64,000 nucleotides of DNA. It comes from Neovahlkampfia damariscottae. Lineage: Eukaryota > Heterolobosea > Selenaionea > Neovahlkampfiida > Neovahlkampfiidae. Of the stretch, positions 51,723 through 62,997 are shown piece by piece. The stretch is from NCBI GenBank assembly GCA_016618085.1, contig JABLTG010000057.1, forward strand, positions 37,942 to 101,941, given 5' to 3'. Below the pieces are notes generated by a model that searched no databases, was not told the DNA's origin, and saw nothing but the letters and a program-made list of their open reading frames with translations. How positions within the stretch are numbered: the first letter of the stretch is position 1; every line of letters starts with the position of its first letter. Made by a program: the position numbers and the translations under genes.

Positions 51723-54700
51723 TTATTTTTTTTCTCTTTCTTGTAAAAGTGTATCTAATAATTTTTTTGAAATATCTCTTTCATTTTTGAGTTCTTTATT
51801 ATATAAATTGACCAATGCCTCGTAATGATTTTTTAATCTCTCAACTTCTTCATATGAATAAACTCTTTCTGGTACTTTTATAAAACTGTTTGATGACATT
51901 CTTGATGGACTGGTTTTTGGTGAAACTCCCAATTTTTTTTGATGTTCAAAAAATTGTATTTTTTGTAACATTGGAGATTCTCTTGGTGTTGCAATATGTT
52001 TATTATTAGGTGTTGGTGTTGGTGTTCCTGGATATTGATCATCTGACAAATTATTTGTTGTTGGTAAATCTTCTTCGTTTTGTTCTGAAGATTGTTCAGA
52101 TGTTTCATCTTGTTCAACTGAAATACTAATTTTTGGTTGTGATTTTTTTTTTTGTTTTTTAAATTCATCAACTTCTTTTTGATGTTTTTTTTTCATATCA
52201 GATACTTCTTTTTCAGCTTCCAAAAGAAATGTTTTTGCATCTTCAACAGATTTTTCTTGAATAATTTTAGCTGCTGATTCTGCATGTTTTAAGATTTGTT
52301 TTGATTCTTTATCAGCAGATTTTAAAATTTGATTTGCATCTTTTTCTGCTTTTTCTATAATTTCAGCAGCTGAAATATCAGCTTTATTTAAAATATCTTG
52401 TGCTTCTTTGTCTGCAGCTTCAATTAATTTTTTTGTTTTTTCAGATTGAATTTGAGTTAATGATTTTCTTTTATCATTGTTAGTAGTACCATTTTCAGAT
52501 GATGATAATTTACTAATTTTATTTTCAGTAATTTCAATTAATTTTTGAGATTCTTTTTTTGCATTTTCTAAAATTTCTTTTGCTTTTTCTTCACCTTTTT
52601 TTATAATTTCTTCTGCTTCTTTTTTTGCTTTTTCATCAACATTTGATTTTACAACTTTTAATTCTTCAATTTGAGTTTTTAAAAAAACATTTTCATTTTT
52701 TAATTCTTCATTTGCGTTACCCAATTGAATTAAAGTTTCATTCTTTTTTAAAATTTCTTCATTTGAAACTATCGATTGAGTTTTTCTTGGAGTTTGTATT
52801 TTAGTTTCGGTTGAATTGGAAGATTCTTTTTGATTTTGATTTTGGGATTGAGATTGATTTTGTATTTGTATTTGTTGTTGTTCAATTTCTTCTTCTTTTT
52901 CTAATGATTTTGTTTCAAATTCTAATTTTAATTTTTGAATTTCATTTTCATAATGATTTTTAACTTCTTCTGAAGTCATTAAATCAAAATCAATTTCATT
53001 TTTAATTTCATCTTTTAAATCTAAATAAGTTTTTAAATCTAAACAAGAAGATCCATCATCAAAATAAGAATTTAATGAATCTGTATCTTTTCTTAAAAAA
53101 CTTAATAAAATATCACTTCCAGTTGAATTATGTTCAATTAATGATGATAATTGAATTGCACCTTTTTTTAATCTTTTATTACAATGTGATATAAACTCTT
53201 TTGATTTTGAAATATCTTCTTTTATATTTAAAATTTGATGTAAAATTAATTTTTTATCTTCATAAATTAAAAGTTTTTCATCTAATTTTTTAAATTTTTC
53301 TTCTTTTGCTTGTAATAATTTTTTATATTCTTGTACTTTTTTTGAAATTTCTTGTTTATTTTTTATTTTTTCTTTTACAAATTCTTCAAGAGATTCAACA
53401 CTTTCTTCATTTATTTTTTGTTCTGATTCTTTTAATTTTTCATATTCATCTTTTCTAACTTTTTGAATTTCATTGGTCCATTCTCTAATATCTAATTCTC
53501 CTTTTTCAAAACCTTGAAAATGTAATGTTTCACCATGTGTCCAAGAATTTAAAAATAAATCTAATGGATTTTCTTTTTTTTCAATTGAAGTAAAAACTAA
53601 ATGAATATTCAATCTTAATATTTCATTTTCTTCATCTTCTTCAATATCATCTAAATGTGTTGGATCATTACAATTTGCAACCAATAAAATATCAGTAAAT
53701 AAATAAACATCACAAATTATCCATTCACCTTTTAAATTATATTTTAAATGTCCTTCTTTAACTAAATGACGATGTGGTTGAATTATACTTCTAACAAGTG
53801 TATGTTTTACTTTTTCACTTGAATGTGAATGTTCACTTGTTCCACCCATTTGTGCTGAATTTGATATAAAATTTGTAAATTTCTTTTGAATTTGTTTTAA
53901 TGTTTTTTGTGAATCTTTTTGTCTTTTTTGTTCATTTAAATGTGATGCAACATCTCCAATTAAAACAATTGATTTTTGAAGTAATGCATAATCAAAATGA
54001 CCTCTTGGTGTTGTTCTTAATAAATCATCTAATAATAATTTATATCTTGGTACACGTTGAATTGGTTTAATTAATAATGATCCTAAATCTTCACCTTCAT
54101 TCTTTTTTACTGTTTTTATAAATTGTTCAACATTTTTATCTTCAGTTTTTAATCTTTTTAATTCTTTTTGTGCATCATCAAAATTATTAATATAAATTGT
54201 ATATAATTTTAAAAATGGTGTAAATTTAGTAAAGGTTTCTCCGACTGTCATTTTCTTATCTTGTTTTTTTGGTTCTTCATGTTTTTTTTTACCAAAATTT
54301 ATACCTTTCTTTTTTACATCTTTTTCAGGTGTAGAATTCATATCTTTATATCCAAAAACATTTTTTAAATTTTGTAAAAGTAAACGATTAAATGGTAAAA
54401 TTGTTGTAACTTGAAATTAGAATAAAATAAAATCTAACCATTGCTAAAAATAATTCCTGCTTGTTTTTGATTGAATACTTTTTGATATTTCATAACAGCT
54501 TCAGTTTTTTCTAAAGATTTTACATAACTTTCTTCAGTTGATATAATTTCTTTTATAATATTGATTCGTTTTTTTTGTGATTTTGCTAGAACTAAAAAAA
54601 ATATATATTATATTTTTTCTTTACCTTTAATTTTTTTTTTTAATTGAAAAAATCTCCATGCTCTTTGAATTTTGTCTGCAGCAGTATCTTCTGGACTAAG

Positions 54701-54835: not shown

Positions 54836-57800
54836 ATGACTTCAATAGAGGAAGAAGAAAAATTGTCTAGCACTGACAACCCTCAGGTCATTGAATCTCA
54901 AGAAGATAAAATTGATAATTTAATTGATGAAGAAGAAGAAGAAGAGCAGGTTGCGAATCCAAAAATTGGATGGATGAACTTAAAATTTGCAAAATTTAAA
55001 GTTGTTGAAGAAAAAATTGAAAAAGGTTTGTTTAATTTTAGAATTAAAAATTAAAGACTCAATATTTCAATCTGATCTCGATTGTAAAATTTCTTATTCA
55101 AAATTACCCGAAAAATTTCGTAAAGAATCTGATTCAAATATATCTTTTGAAAAAGAACTTGAACCTTATCAAAAATACAGTTATGATTATTTAATTAATG
55201 GTAATCTTGTAAAAGTGGAAAGACCAAATAGTTTTAAACAAATTCCTACTGGACAAAAACCACAACAAAAAGAAACACCAGATGATGGTTTGGTGAACTT
55301 TAGATCTTTTATGCAAGAATCACGTTTACCAGATACTGAAGAAGAAATAGAAGAAAAAAAGAAAGAAATAAAAAAATCACAACAATCAACTGAATCTGAA
55401 GAAAAAATTAGTTTTTCACTTCAAACTGAGAAAGACATTGAAAATAAAAGAGATTATGTCACAGAAGAGTTTTCAAAAGTCAGATTTTTGTTTCTTTTTT
55501 TTAATATTCAACATTAGTTACCTAAAAATTTATTACATAACCCTTTTCATGTTTGGAATAATGTTGAAGTTACTTCATGTGAAAGATCAATTGATTTAAT
55601 TCCGTATCGTGACTCAAAGTGAGTATTTTATTTTAATTTAACTATTTATGGAGGGATACAAAAATTCGTTTTAAATTAAACAAATTTGAAGTATCTGTTG
55701 GAAATTTTGAACCTTTGTTTTGTAAACTATCTCTTTATGATGCAAAAAATGAAGTTTTTTTAACTGAAAGTCATCACTTTTTTTTGAATGTATCTGCTGA
55801 AGAAGTTGCTCATATACCAAATTTTCCAAAAGAATTTATCACAGATAAAAAAGAATCTCTTGTGTTTTCAATACCAGGAGTTCATTCAAACATTTATATT
55901 GTTTTTTTTGTTGAAAGAATCTTTCAACAAAATTCTCAAAATGAAAATTATTTGAAAAAAAAAATAAATTTACAAAGTTCAAAAGAAAGTGTAACAGAAT
56001 CATGGGAAACAACACCAATATTAAGACAACCACTTTTTTGGACATTTGAACCTTTATTTGAAGTTGATGTCCAAGAAAAAAAGAAAAAAAGTAGTGACAG
56101 AAATACAGTTGAAAAAGTATTTTTAAGACAAGGACCAAGAAAGATATCAAAACTTTATTCAAATATTGGAGAATTTAAATCTAGAATTAAATTATATGAA
56201 GCACTCATTTCAAATTCTAATTTTGCAACCAAAAAAGCCAAATTAATTCCTGGATTTATAGGTATAAATGTTGAACAAGTTGTTGATGATAAAATTTTAA
56301 AAGAAGAAAAATTACTTTTAAAATTTCACAAAGATTATGAGTCTTTGTATAACTTGCATTTTCAACACTTTTTAATGGTTGAATTAACATCTGCAAATCT
56401 TTCAAGTGTTTCTGGAAATAATGTTGCTATTCAAATTTCATTGAGAGAAGATGATGATTTAACAAAAGCACCATTGAAAAAAATACATTCAAGATTTTCA
56501 CCTGAGTCATGGAAAGAAAAAGATTTTAGTACAATTACGCATCATCAAAAGGCACCTCAATTTTTTGATGAAATTAGAATAGATCTTCCTTTCAATTTAA
56601 CAAAAAATCATCATATTTTATTTGAATTTTTAGAAGTTGAATTTGATAAACAAAATGTAAAAGAATTATCATTACGAACAATTGGATATTCAATTGTGAA
56701 AGTTGTCACTGATAATTTAATTAATGGTCATTTTATTGAAAATATTTATAAAGAATTACCACCAAAATATCTTGAAAAATTGGATACTTTGGAACCAATT
56801 GATAAAAAAAAGAAGACATTCAAATTTACCTGTCATAGTCATACAACGGCACTTCCAAAATGTCCAATTACAATTCAATTTTTAAGAATGTGTCCATTCT
56901 TTTTTGAAAAAGATCAAACTGTAATGTCACTTGAATTATTTGATTATATTTCATCATTTCTTTTACCAAATGCAATTACAGCTTCAAAAAATATGATGAA
57001 ATGTAATCTCGAAAATGTTTATCCAAATTTACCTTCAATTTTGAATATTTCATTATATATTTTAGCAAATGGAAAAGAAGGTACTCCAGAACAAAAAGAA
57101 AAAGATCCAAAATTTACTGAAAAAATGAGGGATGTATCAAAATCAGCATTTGATATTCTTTTATCTTTATCAAGTGGAATTATAAAATATTTTCCATCTT
57201 TGGGAAATAGAAATACTGATTTGGACTCATATTTAGAATATATTTTAAATATTCCATCAATGTCAATTGTTCCACTTCATCATACTATTACAGAACTTTG
57301 GTTGGAAAAATTGAATACAATTATCAACGAAGATTCAAAACTTTTAACAAAAGGTGAAGTATCTGAATCATTTAGAAAGAGTAGTAGTTCAGAAATACCA
57401 AAAAAAAGAAAAGAAAGAGGTGTTTCATTATTTGGTAACAAAAATGATAAAAAAAAGATTGAAAGTGTTCAAAATTCTGTCAAAGATATTAAATTAGTTG
57501 ATAGTCGTGAAACTATTCATTTATCTTGGTTTATGTTTGAATTATTATCAAAAATACTTTTCTTATATTCAAAAGTTTCACCTGATAAATCAAAAAAACA
57601 TAATTATTCATCTGAAGATCTTGGAAAAGATGATAAATTTTTTGATAATTTACATTTTTCAGGTGTATTAGAAACACTTTTAAAAAAGACAGTTGAAATT
57701 GGAGGGGATGTTGCAATCAAAACGAATCATGCATTATCTTTATTTATTAAAGATCTTTTAACAATTTCATTTCAACCAAATATGATTGATAGTAATTTTA

Positions 57801-60101
57801 GAACAAATACACTCAATTTATTATTGGAATATTTGAAACATTTAGATTGGAGAAATTCAGAATTAGCTTTTAATATGAAACTTGATTTTGTTGAACTTAT
57901 TTTGGATCATGAAAATTTTGTTGAAATGTCATGGAAATTAGAACAAGGAACATTATCAAAATGTTGTATTCAAATTTTATGTGATTCTTTCATTAATGAT
58001 CAATATAGAACAAGAGTAAAAAAAAAAGTTAAATTTTAATTTTTTTTTAAAAAGACAATTAACATTATGTATCAAATATTTTCAAAATGGGATATGGCAG
58101 AAAAATATCAAAATATTGAACAAAAAAATGCAATTTCAGTTCTTTTATTACCATTACTTGATTTTATAATTGATGATGAAGAAGTTATAAAAGGAATTGA
58201 TAAAAGTACAGCAAAAGATGAAAAAATAACGAAAAGATTTTGGCCAGTTTTTCTTCAAATTTTTAATAATTGCGAAAAAACTAAATTTAATGAATGGTTA
58301 AATAGTAAATCAGTTGAATCATTAGAAAGATTTATATTATTAGTTCCAAAAACTATAAAAGGATTAAAAGATATTCAAGATAAAAATTATATTAGAACAT
58401 GTAAATTTGTTGGATTAAAATTAATTTCAACAATTTCAAATGCATCAGAAAAAAGAATAAGAGAAAATGATGAATATTTAATTTTAGAAAGAATTGTTAA
58501 AGTTTTAGTTAATTATCTTGATAAAAATTCACCAAATTTAGATAAATTAAATTTAGAAGAAGATGATGTTTTCTTTTTAACAATTTTAAATGAAATTATA
58601 AACAAATATACAGATGTTTTATGTTCACAAAAATTTTCATCAAAAACATTTATGTGGAAATGGATTGTTGGTATTTTAATAAAACCATTAGATTTTCCAT
58701 TATCTGAAACTAAAAATTTAGTTTTAATTCATGGTTTAAATATTTTAACAAAACTATATGAAAATGAAATTAAAACAATGTCAGCAGATAGATTAATTAT
58801 ACCATGTGACTCAGATGATTCAATTGTATTTCAAGATCAAAATTTTATTAAAGCAGCATCACTTGATAAATTAATTGAAAGAATGACATATGAAAAACAT
58901 CCAGAATTAAAATTTAAAGATATATTTTTATTAACTTATAGATCATTTACTACACCTTTTATTTTACTTGATAAACTTATTCAAAGATTTAGACAAGCAA
59001 TTTTAGTTGATCCAGAAGGAAGTGATAAAATTACACTTAGAGTTTTAAATTCAATTAAATTTTGGGTTGATAAATATTTTTATGATTTTGATAATATTTT
59101 AGTTACAAGATTAATTAAATTTTTATCAGATGAAGTTTCATTATCTCCAAAATTAAGAATATTTTGTAAAACTTTAAAAAGAAGTTTAGCTGTAAAGTTA
59201 ATTACAGATGATGCAATTGCAACTTCTGATTACAATTTTAAAGATCAAGCAGAAGATCCAGTTTTACCAAAAAATTTTAATAGAGATGATAAAAATTTTC
59301 CATTTGTTTTATTATCCTGGGATTCAAAAGAAATTGCAAAACAAATGACAATACTTGAAAGTATTTTATTTAAAAGTATTGCACCAAAAGAATGTTTATC
59401 AGGATCATGGGCAAAACCAAAAACAAAACATTTACATGCACCAAATATTGTTGCTTTAACAGATCGTTGGAATCGTGTAACTGAATGGGTTTCTTCAACA
59501 ACAATGAATGAACCAGATATGAGAAAAAGAAAAAGAATTATTCAAAAATTTATTGATATTGCAAATGTAGATTTTTAATTTTATTTTCTAATTTTTTCAA
59601 AAATAGGAATTAAGAGGTTTAAATAATTATCATGGTGTTACAGAAATTATTGCAGGACTACAAACAGTGGCAGTTCATAGATTAAAAAAAACATGGGCAT
59701 CTTTACCAGAACAATCAATTGAATTATTTAAAACATTGTCAGAGTTAATTGATAGTCAAGGTGCTTATAAAGCAATGAGAGATGAACTAAAACAATCAAC
59801 ACCACCTTGTATTCCACCAATGGCAATGTATTTGAAAGATTTAATTTTTATTGAAGATGGAAATCCAGATGAAATTAAAAGTCAACCAAATCAAGTTCCT
59901 CTTGTTAACTTTTTTAAAAGAAGAAAAGTAGCAGAAGTTATTTTAAAAATGAGAGAATATCAATTATCTCCTTATAATTTTGTTCAAGTACCTTATTTGA
60001 GAGATCTTTTAGGTTCAAAATTATTTGAAGAAGGTAAATTATTAACAGAAGATCAAATGTGGAAAAATTCACTTAAATTTGAACCAAGAGAAAATAAATA
60101 A
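54836..60101 (+). CDS. DOCK-type (DHR-1 and solenoid) protein ending in a RasGEF domain
   Basis: About 1,670 residues. The N-terminal half is DOCK-like: [15 protein letters not shown], then a DHR-1/C2 domain with [68 protein letters not shown] and [10 protein letters not shown] helical solenoid follows ([28 protein letters not shown]). Where DOCK proteins carry DHR-2 this one has a RasGEF-N ([30 protein letters not shown]) and a CDC25 RasGEF catalytic domain ([70 protein letters not shown]). Introns (55028-55056 area, 55480, 55619, 58018-58053, 59571-59610) are 26-40 nt, and each joint keeps the frame; the joint at 58018 falls inside DOCK solenoid sequence, arguing against two genes. Confidence 0.88.
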
Positions 60102-60154: not shown

Positions 60155-61457
<1,303 letters not shown>

Positions 61458-61577: not shown

Positions 61578-61582
61578 ATTGG
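61578..61582. promoter_or_regulatory. ATTGG element upstream of RGS-START gene
   Basis: TTAATTGGTCAAC 20 nt upstream of the ATG at 61603; it excludes the longer frame that starts from non-ATG codons. Confidence 0.45.
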
Positions 61583-61602
61583 TCAACGTGACAAATTCAG
61601 AA

Positions 61603-62997
61603 ATGGAACAAAAATTCGACAAGACAAAATTCCTTGTGCACTTTGATTCAATTTATTCAAACAAAAAGATGGGACTTGCTTTCAGAACTTATCTAGAAAC
61701 CGAACACAGTTCAGAATCATTTGATTTTTTGACCAGTGTAAAAAGCTTGGAAACAATGAAAGATGAGAAACAACTTGTAAAACAATGTTTAGAAATTATT
61801 CAAACGTTTATTGTTGTTGACTGCAAGCACGAGTTGAACATTTCATCAGAGCTTAGAGAAAAGACATTAAAGAACTTTGAAAAACAAAAAGAAATAAACG
61901 ATAAATGGGTGTTAGACATGAGTCCTGTTGAAGTATTTTCAGAATGTTTTAGAGTTATTGCTGGTGTTTTAAGACATGATTCTTTCAAAAGATTCGTTAG
62001 AACTGAAGAGTGTGAAAAAATTATGATACAATTCAAACATGACAGCTCAGTCATTTCACCTGCAATTACGAATTTATTTTCTTATAAAAACGATTACTTT
62101 ACTCACCCACACATTGATGACAAAGATTTTGACTTTTTCAAACTTCTTCTTGAAGACAATTATAATTGGAAGGTAGGAATTTTTTTTTCTAAAAACAATT
62201 AATTTTAGTTGGTCGGTTCAAAAGTTAAAGAACAAGTGAATGCATTTATTTCAGATACAAATTATTTACCAGAAGCAAAAATTTCAACGACTGTAAATGT
62301 GGTTAAATTTGAAACTGTACTCAATTGTACATTTGATCAAGCACTTTTGAGTTACTTTTCAAATGAAATGATGATGAAATCAGATCCAAATTGTGGAAGA
62401 ATTAGAAATATGGATTATTTTGAATATGATGATTTGGTGAAATTATATAAGGAACAAAATAAGGAAGATGAAATTAAGCAGTATAAAAGAGATTTAAGTA
62501 TTTGTGCATTAGATTTTGCTTTACCATATCCATTTGATCCAAGATTTGCAAATCGAGCTGATTCAGCTCATTATGATCCAGAAACAAAAACATTTCTAAG
62601 AGTTGGAAAGAATTATTACGAAGATGGACAATTTGGAAAACCAATTACAGTTGAAATGGTAAAAAAAAGAGGTACAAAACCAAAAGTAATGAAAGCTTAC
62701 ACTTTTTTTATGTTTTCTGCTACAATGTATCAAAAAATAGATGAAAAGAAGGTTCTCTATAAGAATATTGTGTTAATGGATTTTGGTGGTTGGGGTTCAT
62801 CTAAAATGATGATTTCAAAAATCATTAAAAGTAGAAAAGAAAAATTTAAGGGAACTATCATTAAAATGGCTCAAGAATTTCCTGATGATATAAAAATCGC
62901 TGATCATGCAGAAAAGCTTTGTAGAAAAGAAGATGGAAAGGTTACTGATGGTTTTGGAAAGTTGCTTGGAAACACTGAATTTGGGAAAGATTATTAA
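61603..62997 (+). CDS. RGS domain plus START-like lipid-binding protein
   Basis: About 450 residues. N-terminal RGS (GTPase-activating for G-alpha): MGLAFRTYLETEHSSESFDFL, ISSELREKTLKNFEKQ, VFSECFRVIAGVLRHDSFKRFV. After a 35-nt-class intron (about 62174-62208), the rest resembles a START/SRPBCC cavity domain: LVGSKVKEQVNAF, TVNVVKFETVLNCTFDQALLSYF, KAYTFFMFSATMYQKID, LYKNIVLMDFGGWGSS. The START reading is from fold-like pattern only and is less sure than RGS. Suggests a G-protein regulator that senses or carries a lipid. Heterotrimeric G proteins themselves are not in the window. Confidence 0.75.

Follow-up and report, generated by a model that had tools for sequence, protein, structure and literature searches.

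A window of 64,000 nucleotides from the heterolobosean Neovahlkampfia damariscottae (assembly GCA_016618085.1, contig JABLTG010000057.1, positions 37,942 to 101,941 of the forward strand) was analysed, and on its plus strand we found a gene (54836-60101) whose product is very probably a Ras-family guanine nucleotide exchange factor (GEF) on a DOCK-type chassis. The available text of PMC8305018 describes DOCK proteins as activators of Rac1 and Cdc42 that have two conserved domains, DHR-1 and DHR-2. Judging by sequence comparison, the module before DHR-1, DHR-1 itself and the helical solenoid of the window protein are homologous to and collinear with those of DOCK, and a complete cassette of REM and CDC25 domains of the SOS/RasGRF/CDC25 type occupies the place of DHR-2.

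Using hand splicing, the gene was read as a single open frame from the ATG at 54836 to the end of the stop codon at 60101, which comprises six exons, five short GT-AG introns and, once spliced, 1,698 codons. A scan of alternatives left some doubt about where intron 1 ends, as a 16-base span gives 1,698 amino acids (aa) and a 31-base one (55026-55056) gives 1,693; the longer intron is the likelier, and the choice changes five residues of the unconserved N-terminus and leaves the downstream sequence unaffected. The Pfam scan of the spliced protein returned DOCK-C2, RasGEF_N and RasGEF (residues 1456-1640), all of them above the cut-offs (Table 1), and no further match at E≤1. The first-pass annotation of this stretch had proposed a DOCK-like N-terminal half with DHR-1 and a solenoid, followed by RasGEF-N and CDC25 domains. 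The second part of this proposal is borne out by the two RasGEF matches, and the first by the DOCK-C2 match and by profile-profile alignment (hhalign), in which residues 227-1190 were collinear with residues 350-1444 of DOCK11 (E 7e-73). When tested alone, residues 1-461 matched DOCK11 350-607 (E 9.1e-19) and the solenoid (691-1286) matched DOCK11 864-1444 (E 9.7e-27); in the chance controls against DOCK, the best E was 0.52 for the reversed family profile and 0.73 for the RasGEF part. The module before DHR-1 was additionally matched to DOCK6 275-359 by phmmer with an i-Evalue of 0.26, which is weak by itself. The replacement of DHR-2 by a Ras exchange domain, which had also been claimed, agrees with the profile searches, in which no DHR-2 lobe was detected in the spliced protein at E≤1 and neither lobe A nor lobe C was matched at the locus in the genome. 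A hidden DHR-2 was rejected on these grounds and because the profile match to DOCK11 stops at 1444, ahead of its DHR-2, which starts at 1597.

The chassis is nearest by sequence to the DOCK-C/D branch (DOCK6-8, DOCK9-11, zizimins), an affinity that is based on sequence and on the tree of the C2 domain. DOCK-C/D proteins and the window protein are alike in the module before DHR-1, DHR-1 and the solenoid, with the order kept, whereas the DHR-2 lobes of the former are matched in position by the RasGEF cassette of the latter. The DOCK9 and DOCK11 proteins that were scanned carry DOCK_C-D_N (PF11878) and a PH domain, both of which were absent from the window protein in the Pfam scan; this N-terminal feature was found in the database proteins P0022 and P0050 and was missing in P0064 and P0049, which bear DHR-2. 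With SOS1/2, RasGRF1 and yeast CDC25, the window protein has the REM and CDC25 cassette in common, its residues 1279-1696 being aligned over the SOS catalytic region. Upstream of the cassette, however, SOS has histone-fold, DH and PH domains (RhoGEF and PH are listed for P0057), whereas the window protein has the DOCK scaffold.

Paralogues, relatives and descent

In the 20.4-Mb genome, 12 DOCK-C2 matches were found, which were counted as 11 loci because two on contig C5 are adjoining halves. A same-strand RasGEF match follows 2.3-3.2 kb on at five of the 11 (C43, C35, C252, C285 and C260, the contig of the window), and DHR-2 follows approximately 2-2.6 kb on at five (C306, C198, C221 at 172 kb, C5 and C241); the genome profile searches detected both together at none of them. 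The genes on C43 (1,770 aa) and C35 (1,402 aa) each hold C2, RasGEF_N and a complete RasGEF within a single unbroken frame, while a 1,868-codon open frame on C285 holds C2, RasGEF_N and the first 52 RasGEF positions, and on C252 the domains are spread over successive frames. At locus L059 (C221, ~190 kb, minus strand), DOCK-C2 is accompanied by further open frames in which neither DHR-2 nor RasGEF was detected, and this is perhaps an enzyme-less chassis or one with a diverged DHR-2. A sixth DHR-2 locus, L065 (C36, ~31 kb, minus strand), has lobes A and C, with DOCK-C2 undetected.

Three protein homology searches, which detect only relatives that share exact five-residue words within a length range and so do not show the family to be absent outside Discoba, returned 24, 26 and 16 proteins. 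Pfam scanning revealed 23 distinct database proteins that carry DOCK-C2, RasGEF_N and RasGEF, and DHR-2 lobes were found in none of the 23 at E≤0.01. Five have named sources: Naegleria gruberi (P0031), N. lovaniensis (P0032 and P0042), Willaertia magna (P0035) and, for P0034, the tag ANDGO_07803, which we take to stand for Andalucia godoyi, a jakobid according to taxonomy. Two others come from the same genome as the window, namely P0025, which is the C43 gene and is identical over the query, and P0027, which agrees with the C35 gene by sequence; the other 16 are metagenomic, transcriptomic or unnamed. The five proteins from named sources are like the window protein in the three domains, their order and the lack of DHR-2 and differ from it in a longer stretch ahead of the C2 domain. 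P0025 (L055), the EukProt model of the C43 gene, adds a stretch upstream that seems unrelated, contains hydrophobic, membrane-like segments and is likely a false fusion. The matches of the first homology search included no public protein model of the window gene itself, which a split or fused model beyond the length filter would explain. In public records, the five from named sources are called no more than hypothetical, 'rasGEF domain-containing', 'C2 DOCK-type domain-containing' or 'Ras guanine nucleotide exchange factor J'. No description of a protein with DOCK/DHR-1 and RasGEF was found among the papers listed in the literature searches, the scope of which excluded subscription papers and preprints: in the available text of PMC11589745 neither RasGEF nor DOCK occurs as a whole word, and in that of PMC9283941 RasGEF occurs once, in a figure legend, and DOCK is absent. 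The domain combination is already public in annotated sequences and apparently unremarked in that literature.

In the scaffold tree (32 rows and 1,183 columns, including four long rows, eight of odd composition and C306 as the sole DHR-2-type locus of the same genome), one branch separated 26 RasGEF-type rows from six DHR-2-type rows (97/96, and 98% of 200 bootstrap trees). The same split was obtained in the C2-only tree of 34 rows (83/80 and 86%), from which matches shorter than 120 residues were excluded, so that C241 and C221 at 190 kb were dropped, and which was also without C221 at 172 kb (no match) and C36 (not tried). Here, the RasGEF type was placed beside DOCK9/11, P0064 and C306 (88/73), with the divergent DOCKs C198 and C5 of the same genome, which are presumably DOCK-A/B-like, included. 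In the scaffold tree, the heterolobosean sequences and those of the genome itself fell into three clades: the window protein with Willaertia (100/100), C285 with N. lovaniensis P0042 (100/100), and C252, C43 (P0025) and C35 (P0027) with N. gruberi P0031 and N. lovaniensis P0032 (88/88). The jakobid grouped with P0051, P0052, P0033 and P0053 (87/86). The RasGEF-type family has heterolobosean and jakobid members, and all of its scaffolds in the tree lie on the same side of a well supported branch. By their placement in these trees, the sequences of the genome itself also point to a heterolobosean as the most likely source. The simplest reading would be that DHR-2 was swapped for RasGEF once, in an early discoban before the heterolobosean/jakobid split, and that the product was then duplicated; the root and the date of the swap are inferred.

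Mechanism and alternative readings

In the proposed mechanism, contacts made by DHR-1 and the solenoid would let the chassis recruit and restrain the enzyme at a membrane, where the CDC25 domain would load Ras or Rap with GTP. DOCKs dimerise through DHR-2, and because it is missing here, neither action on Rac/Cdc42 nor a DOCK-style, DHR-2-mediated dimer would be expected. Several observations weigh against this interpretation. The choice of substrate is based on similarity ranks only. The closest structural match is DOCK5, which lies outside DOCK-C/D, and the support of the C2 tree for the C/D affinity is moderate. The confidence of the two predicted models is middling (mean pLDDT 72.7 and 76.5), and the TM-scores of the DOCK5 matches in Foldseek are modest (0.36-0.42). 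For the model of exon 5, which covers the later solenoid, the best 50 Foldseek matches include SOS only (E 4e-5 or weaker, TM <0.3) and no DOCK. Structure prediction, which had been suggested as a check, showed helices of the solenoid in both models. Finally, in the alignment, the residues S, V and N or a gap in the window protein face R570, K576 and R581 of the DOCK8 L1 loop, by which PI(4,5)P2 is bound according to the available text of PMC7893821.

This last point bears on a reading that is quite possible, although we lean slightly against it, in which the chassis has no affinity for phosphoinositides, DHR-1 and the solenoid act in autoinhibition or in contacts with proteins, and the membrane is reached by other means, e.g. 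through bound Ras. The DOCK8 pocket residues are also missing in P0001 and P0002, the nearest relatives of the window protein. On the other hand, the fold of DHR-1 is retained, and basic residues in the L1 loop are kept by P0034, P0003, P0053 and C285 of the same genome, so lipid binding may be an ancestral feature; lipid targeting may then have been lost or replaced in the window branch. Because the DOCK8-type basic residues are missing, the membrane step is possibly not lipid-driven. In the initial proposal, a lipid-binding scaffold would place a Ras/Rap activator at the membrane; the missing pocket weakens this lipid mechanism for this gene and leaves the architecture untouched.

As for catalysis, the REM/CDC25 exons had their best matches in SOS1/2, RasGRF1 and yeast CDC25, while Rap and Ral exchangers scored less, and by this ranking Ras seems a slightly likelier substrate than Rap. 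The helical hairpin is the catalytic element of CDC25-type RasGEFs, and in the window protein the hairpin and the NFxKRR segment keep the RasGRF1/CDC25/SOS pattern, save for P-M-A in place of the SOS F-F-G. That substitution would suit a catalytically dead domain in a protein that acts as a scaffold or Ras-binding adaptor. Pseudo-GEFs of the CDC25 fold exist, and SH2 domain-containing protein 3C and BCAR3 turned up at low scores in the PDB profile search. We nevertheless consider a dead domain unlikely, as the REM and full-length CDC25 domains are far above the cut-off and the rest of the hairpin and NFxKRR are as in RasGRF1, CDC25 and SOS. The sequence YDPTIEDSY, which we take to be a Ras/Rap-type effector loop motif, is encoded at 10 places in the genome (reversed control, 0). 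The Ras-family profile gave at least 154 exon-level matches (150 of 290 candidates scored), but it also covers Rab, Rho and others and matches 12 of 14 control prokaryotes, which makes it a poor gauge of Ras itself. The 43 exon-level RasGEF matches in the 20.4 Mb are a large Ras-exchange repertoire.

It is barely conceivable that a truncated DOCK gene and an adjacent RasGEF gene were merged merely by the gene model. The model was drawn from sequence alone, the solenoid contains an intron, and the public model P0025 of a family member apparently swallows an upstream gene wrongly when compared with the C43 frame. However, at joints 4 and 5, the latter of which (intron 59567-59606) falls within the RasGEF domain, the alignment was continuous in all six relatives displayed, with insertions of at most three residues except in P0034, which has approximately 30 residues inserted beside joint 4, and 23 database proteins, two from the window's own genome, show the architecture again. 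The exon joint that the first-pass annotation saw at about 58018-58053 inside the solenoid was confirmed as an intron (58016-58054). Its opinion that a fusion of two annotated genes was less likely proved sound: because DOCK-C2 and a complete RasGEF stand in single uninterrupted frames of the paralogues on C43 and C35, a gene-model fusion was ruled out, and the stretch 54836-60101 is one gene. A generic C2 and HEAT/ARM arrangement without descent from DOCK is equally far-fetched, since such a protein was rejected by the collinear hhalign matches to DOCK11, whole and part by part, even though PI3K chains, which also combine C2 and a solenoid, take up much of the Foldseek list.

Features and neighbouring genes

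The gene is flanked by a divergently transcribed frame (51726-54341, minus strand) that matches the Dbl-type RhoGEF profile (PF00621, 1.5e-27) over positions 65-180 of 180 and encodes the C-terminal two thirds of this domain. Downstream, on the plus strand, there are a thiolase exon at 60457-61260 (PF00108, PF02803) and an RGS domain at 61579-62199 (PF00615, 2.5e-18).

Table 1. Features of the DOCK/RasGEF gene, in positions of the window
Feature	Position	Strand	Evidence or remark
Whole gene	54836..60101	+	exons 54836-55025, 55042 (or 55057)-55478, 55518-55618, 55654-58015, 58055-59566, 59607-60101
N-terminus (aa 1-226), acidic, poorly conserved, introns included	54836..55568	+	no Pfam match; outside the profile-profile DOCK match
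DOCK-like module before DHR-1 (aa 227-454)	55569..56287	+	hhalign to DOCK11 350-607
DHR-1 / DOCK-C2 domain (aa 478-644)	56357..56857	+	Pfam 1e-21
DOCK-type helical solenoid (aa 691-1190)	56996..58534	+	hhalign; helices in both structure models
Intron 4, within the solenoid	58016..58054	+	GT-AG, 39 bases; relatives' alignment uninterrupted there
RasGEF_N / REM motif (aa 1295-1385)	58847..59119	+	PF00618 1.7e-20
RasGEF (CDC25) catalytic domain, 2 exons, intron 59567-59606	59330..59924	+	PF00617 2.8e-58; genome matches 59330-59566, 59607-59924
Catalytic helical hairpin segment	59802..59864	+	aligned with RasGRF1, CDC25 and SOS2 chains and the family

The DOCK chassis as a possible platform for exchangeable enzymes

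There is about as much to be said for as against the broader idea that the DOCK chassis, i.e., the N-terminal module, DHR-1 and the solenoid, is a GEF platform with an exchangeable enzyme, and that early discobans swapped DHR-2 for REM-CDC25 once and then multiplied the product beside ordinary DOCKs. If this is true, the same scaffold would here pass on to Ras or Rap the spatial cues by which Rac/Cdc42 are driven in animals, and sister chassis within one cell could possibly give Ras and Rac outputs in parallel. That the chassis is kept while a Ras activator takes the place of its enzyme suggests that targeting or regulation by the chassis forms a unit which can be separated from the enzyme, and the RasGEF-type family makes the contributions of DHR-1 and the solenoid, apart from DHR-2, directly testable. 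Such an exchange would bear on how Ras and Rac signalling is wired in early-branching, crawling protists.
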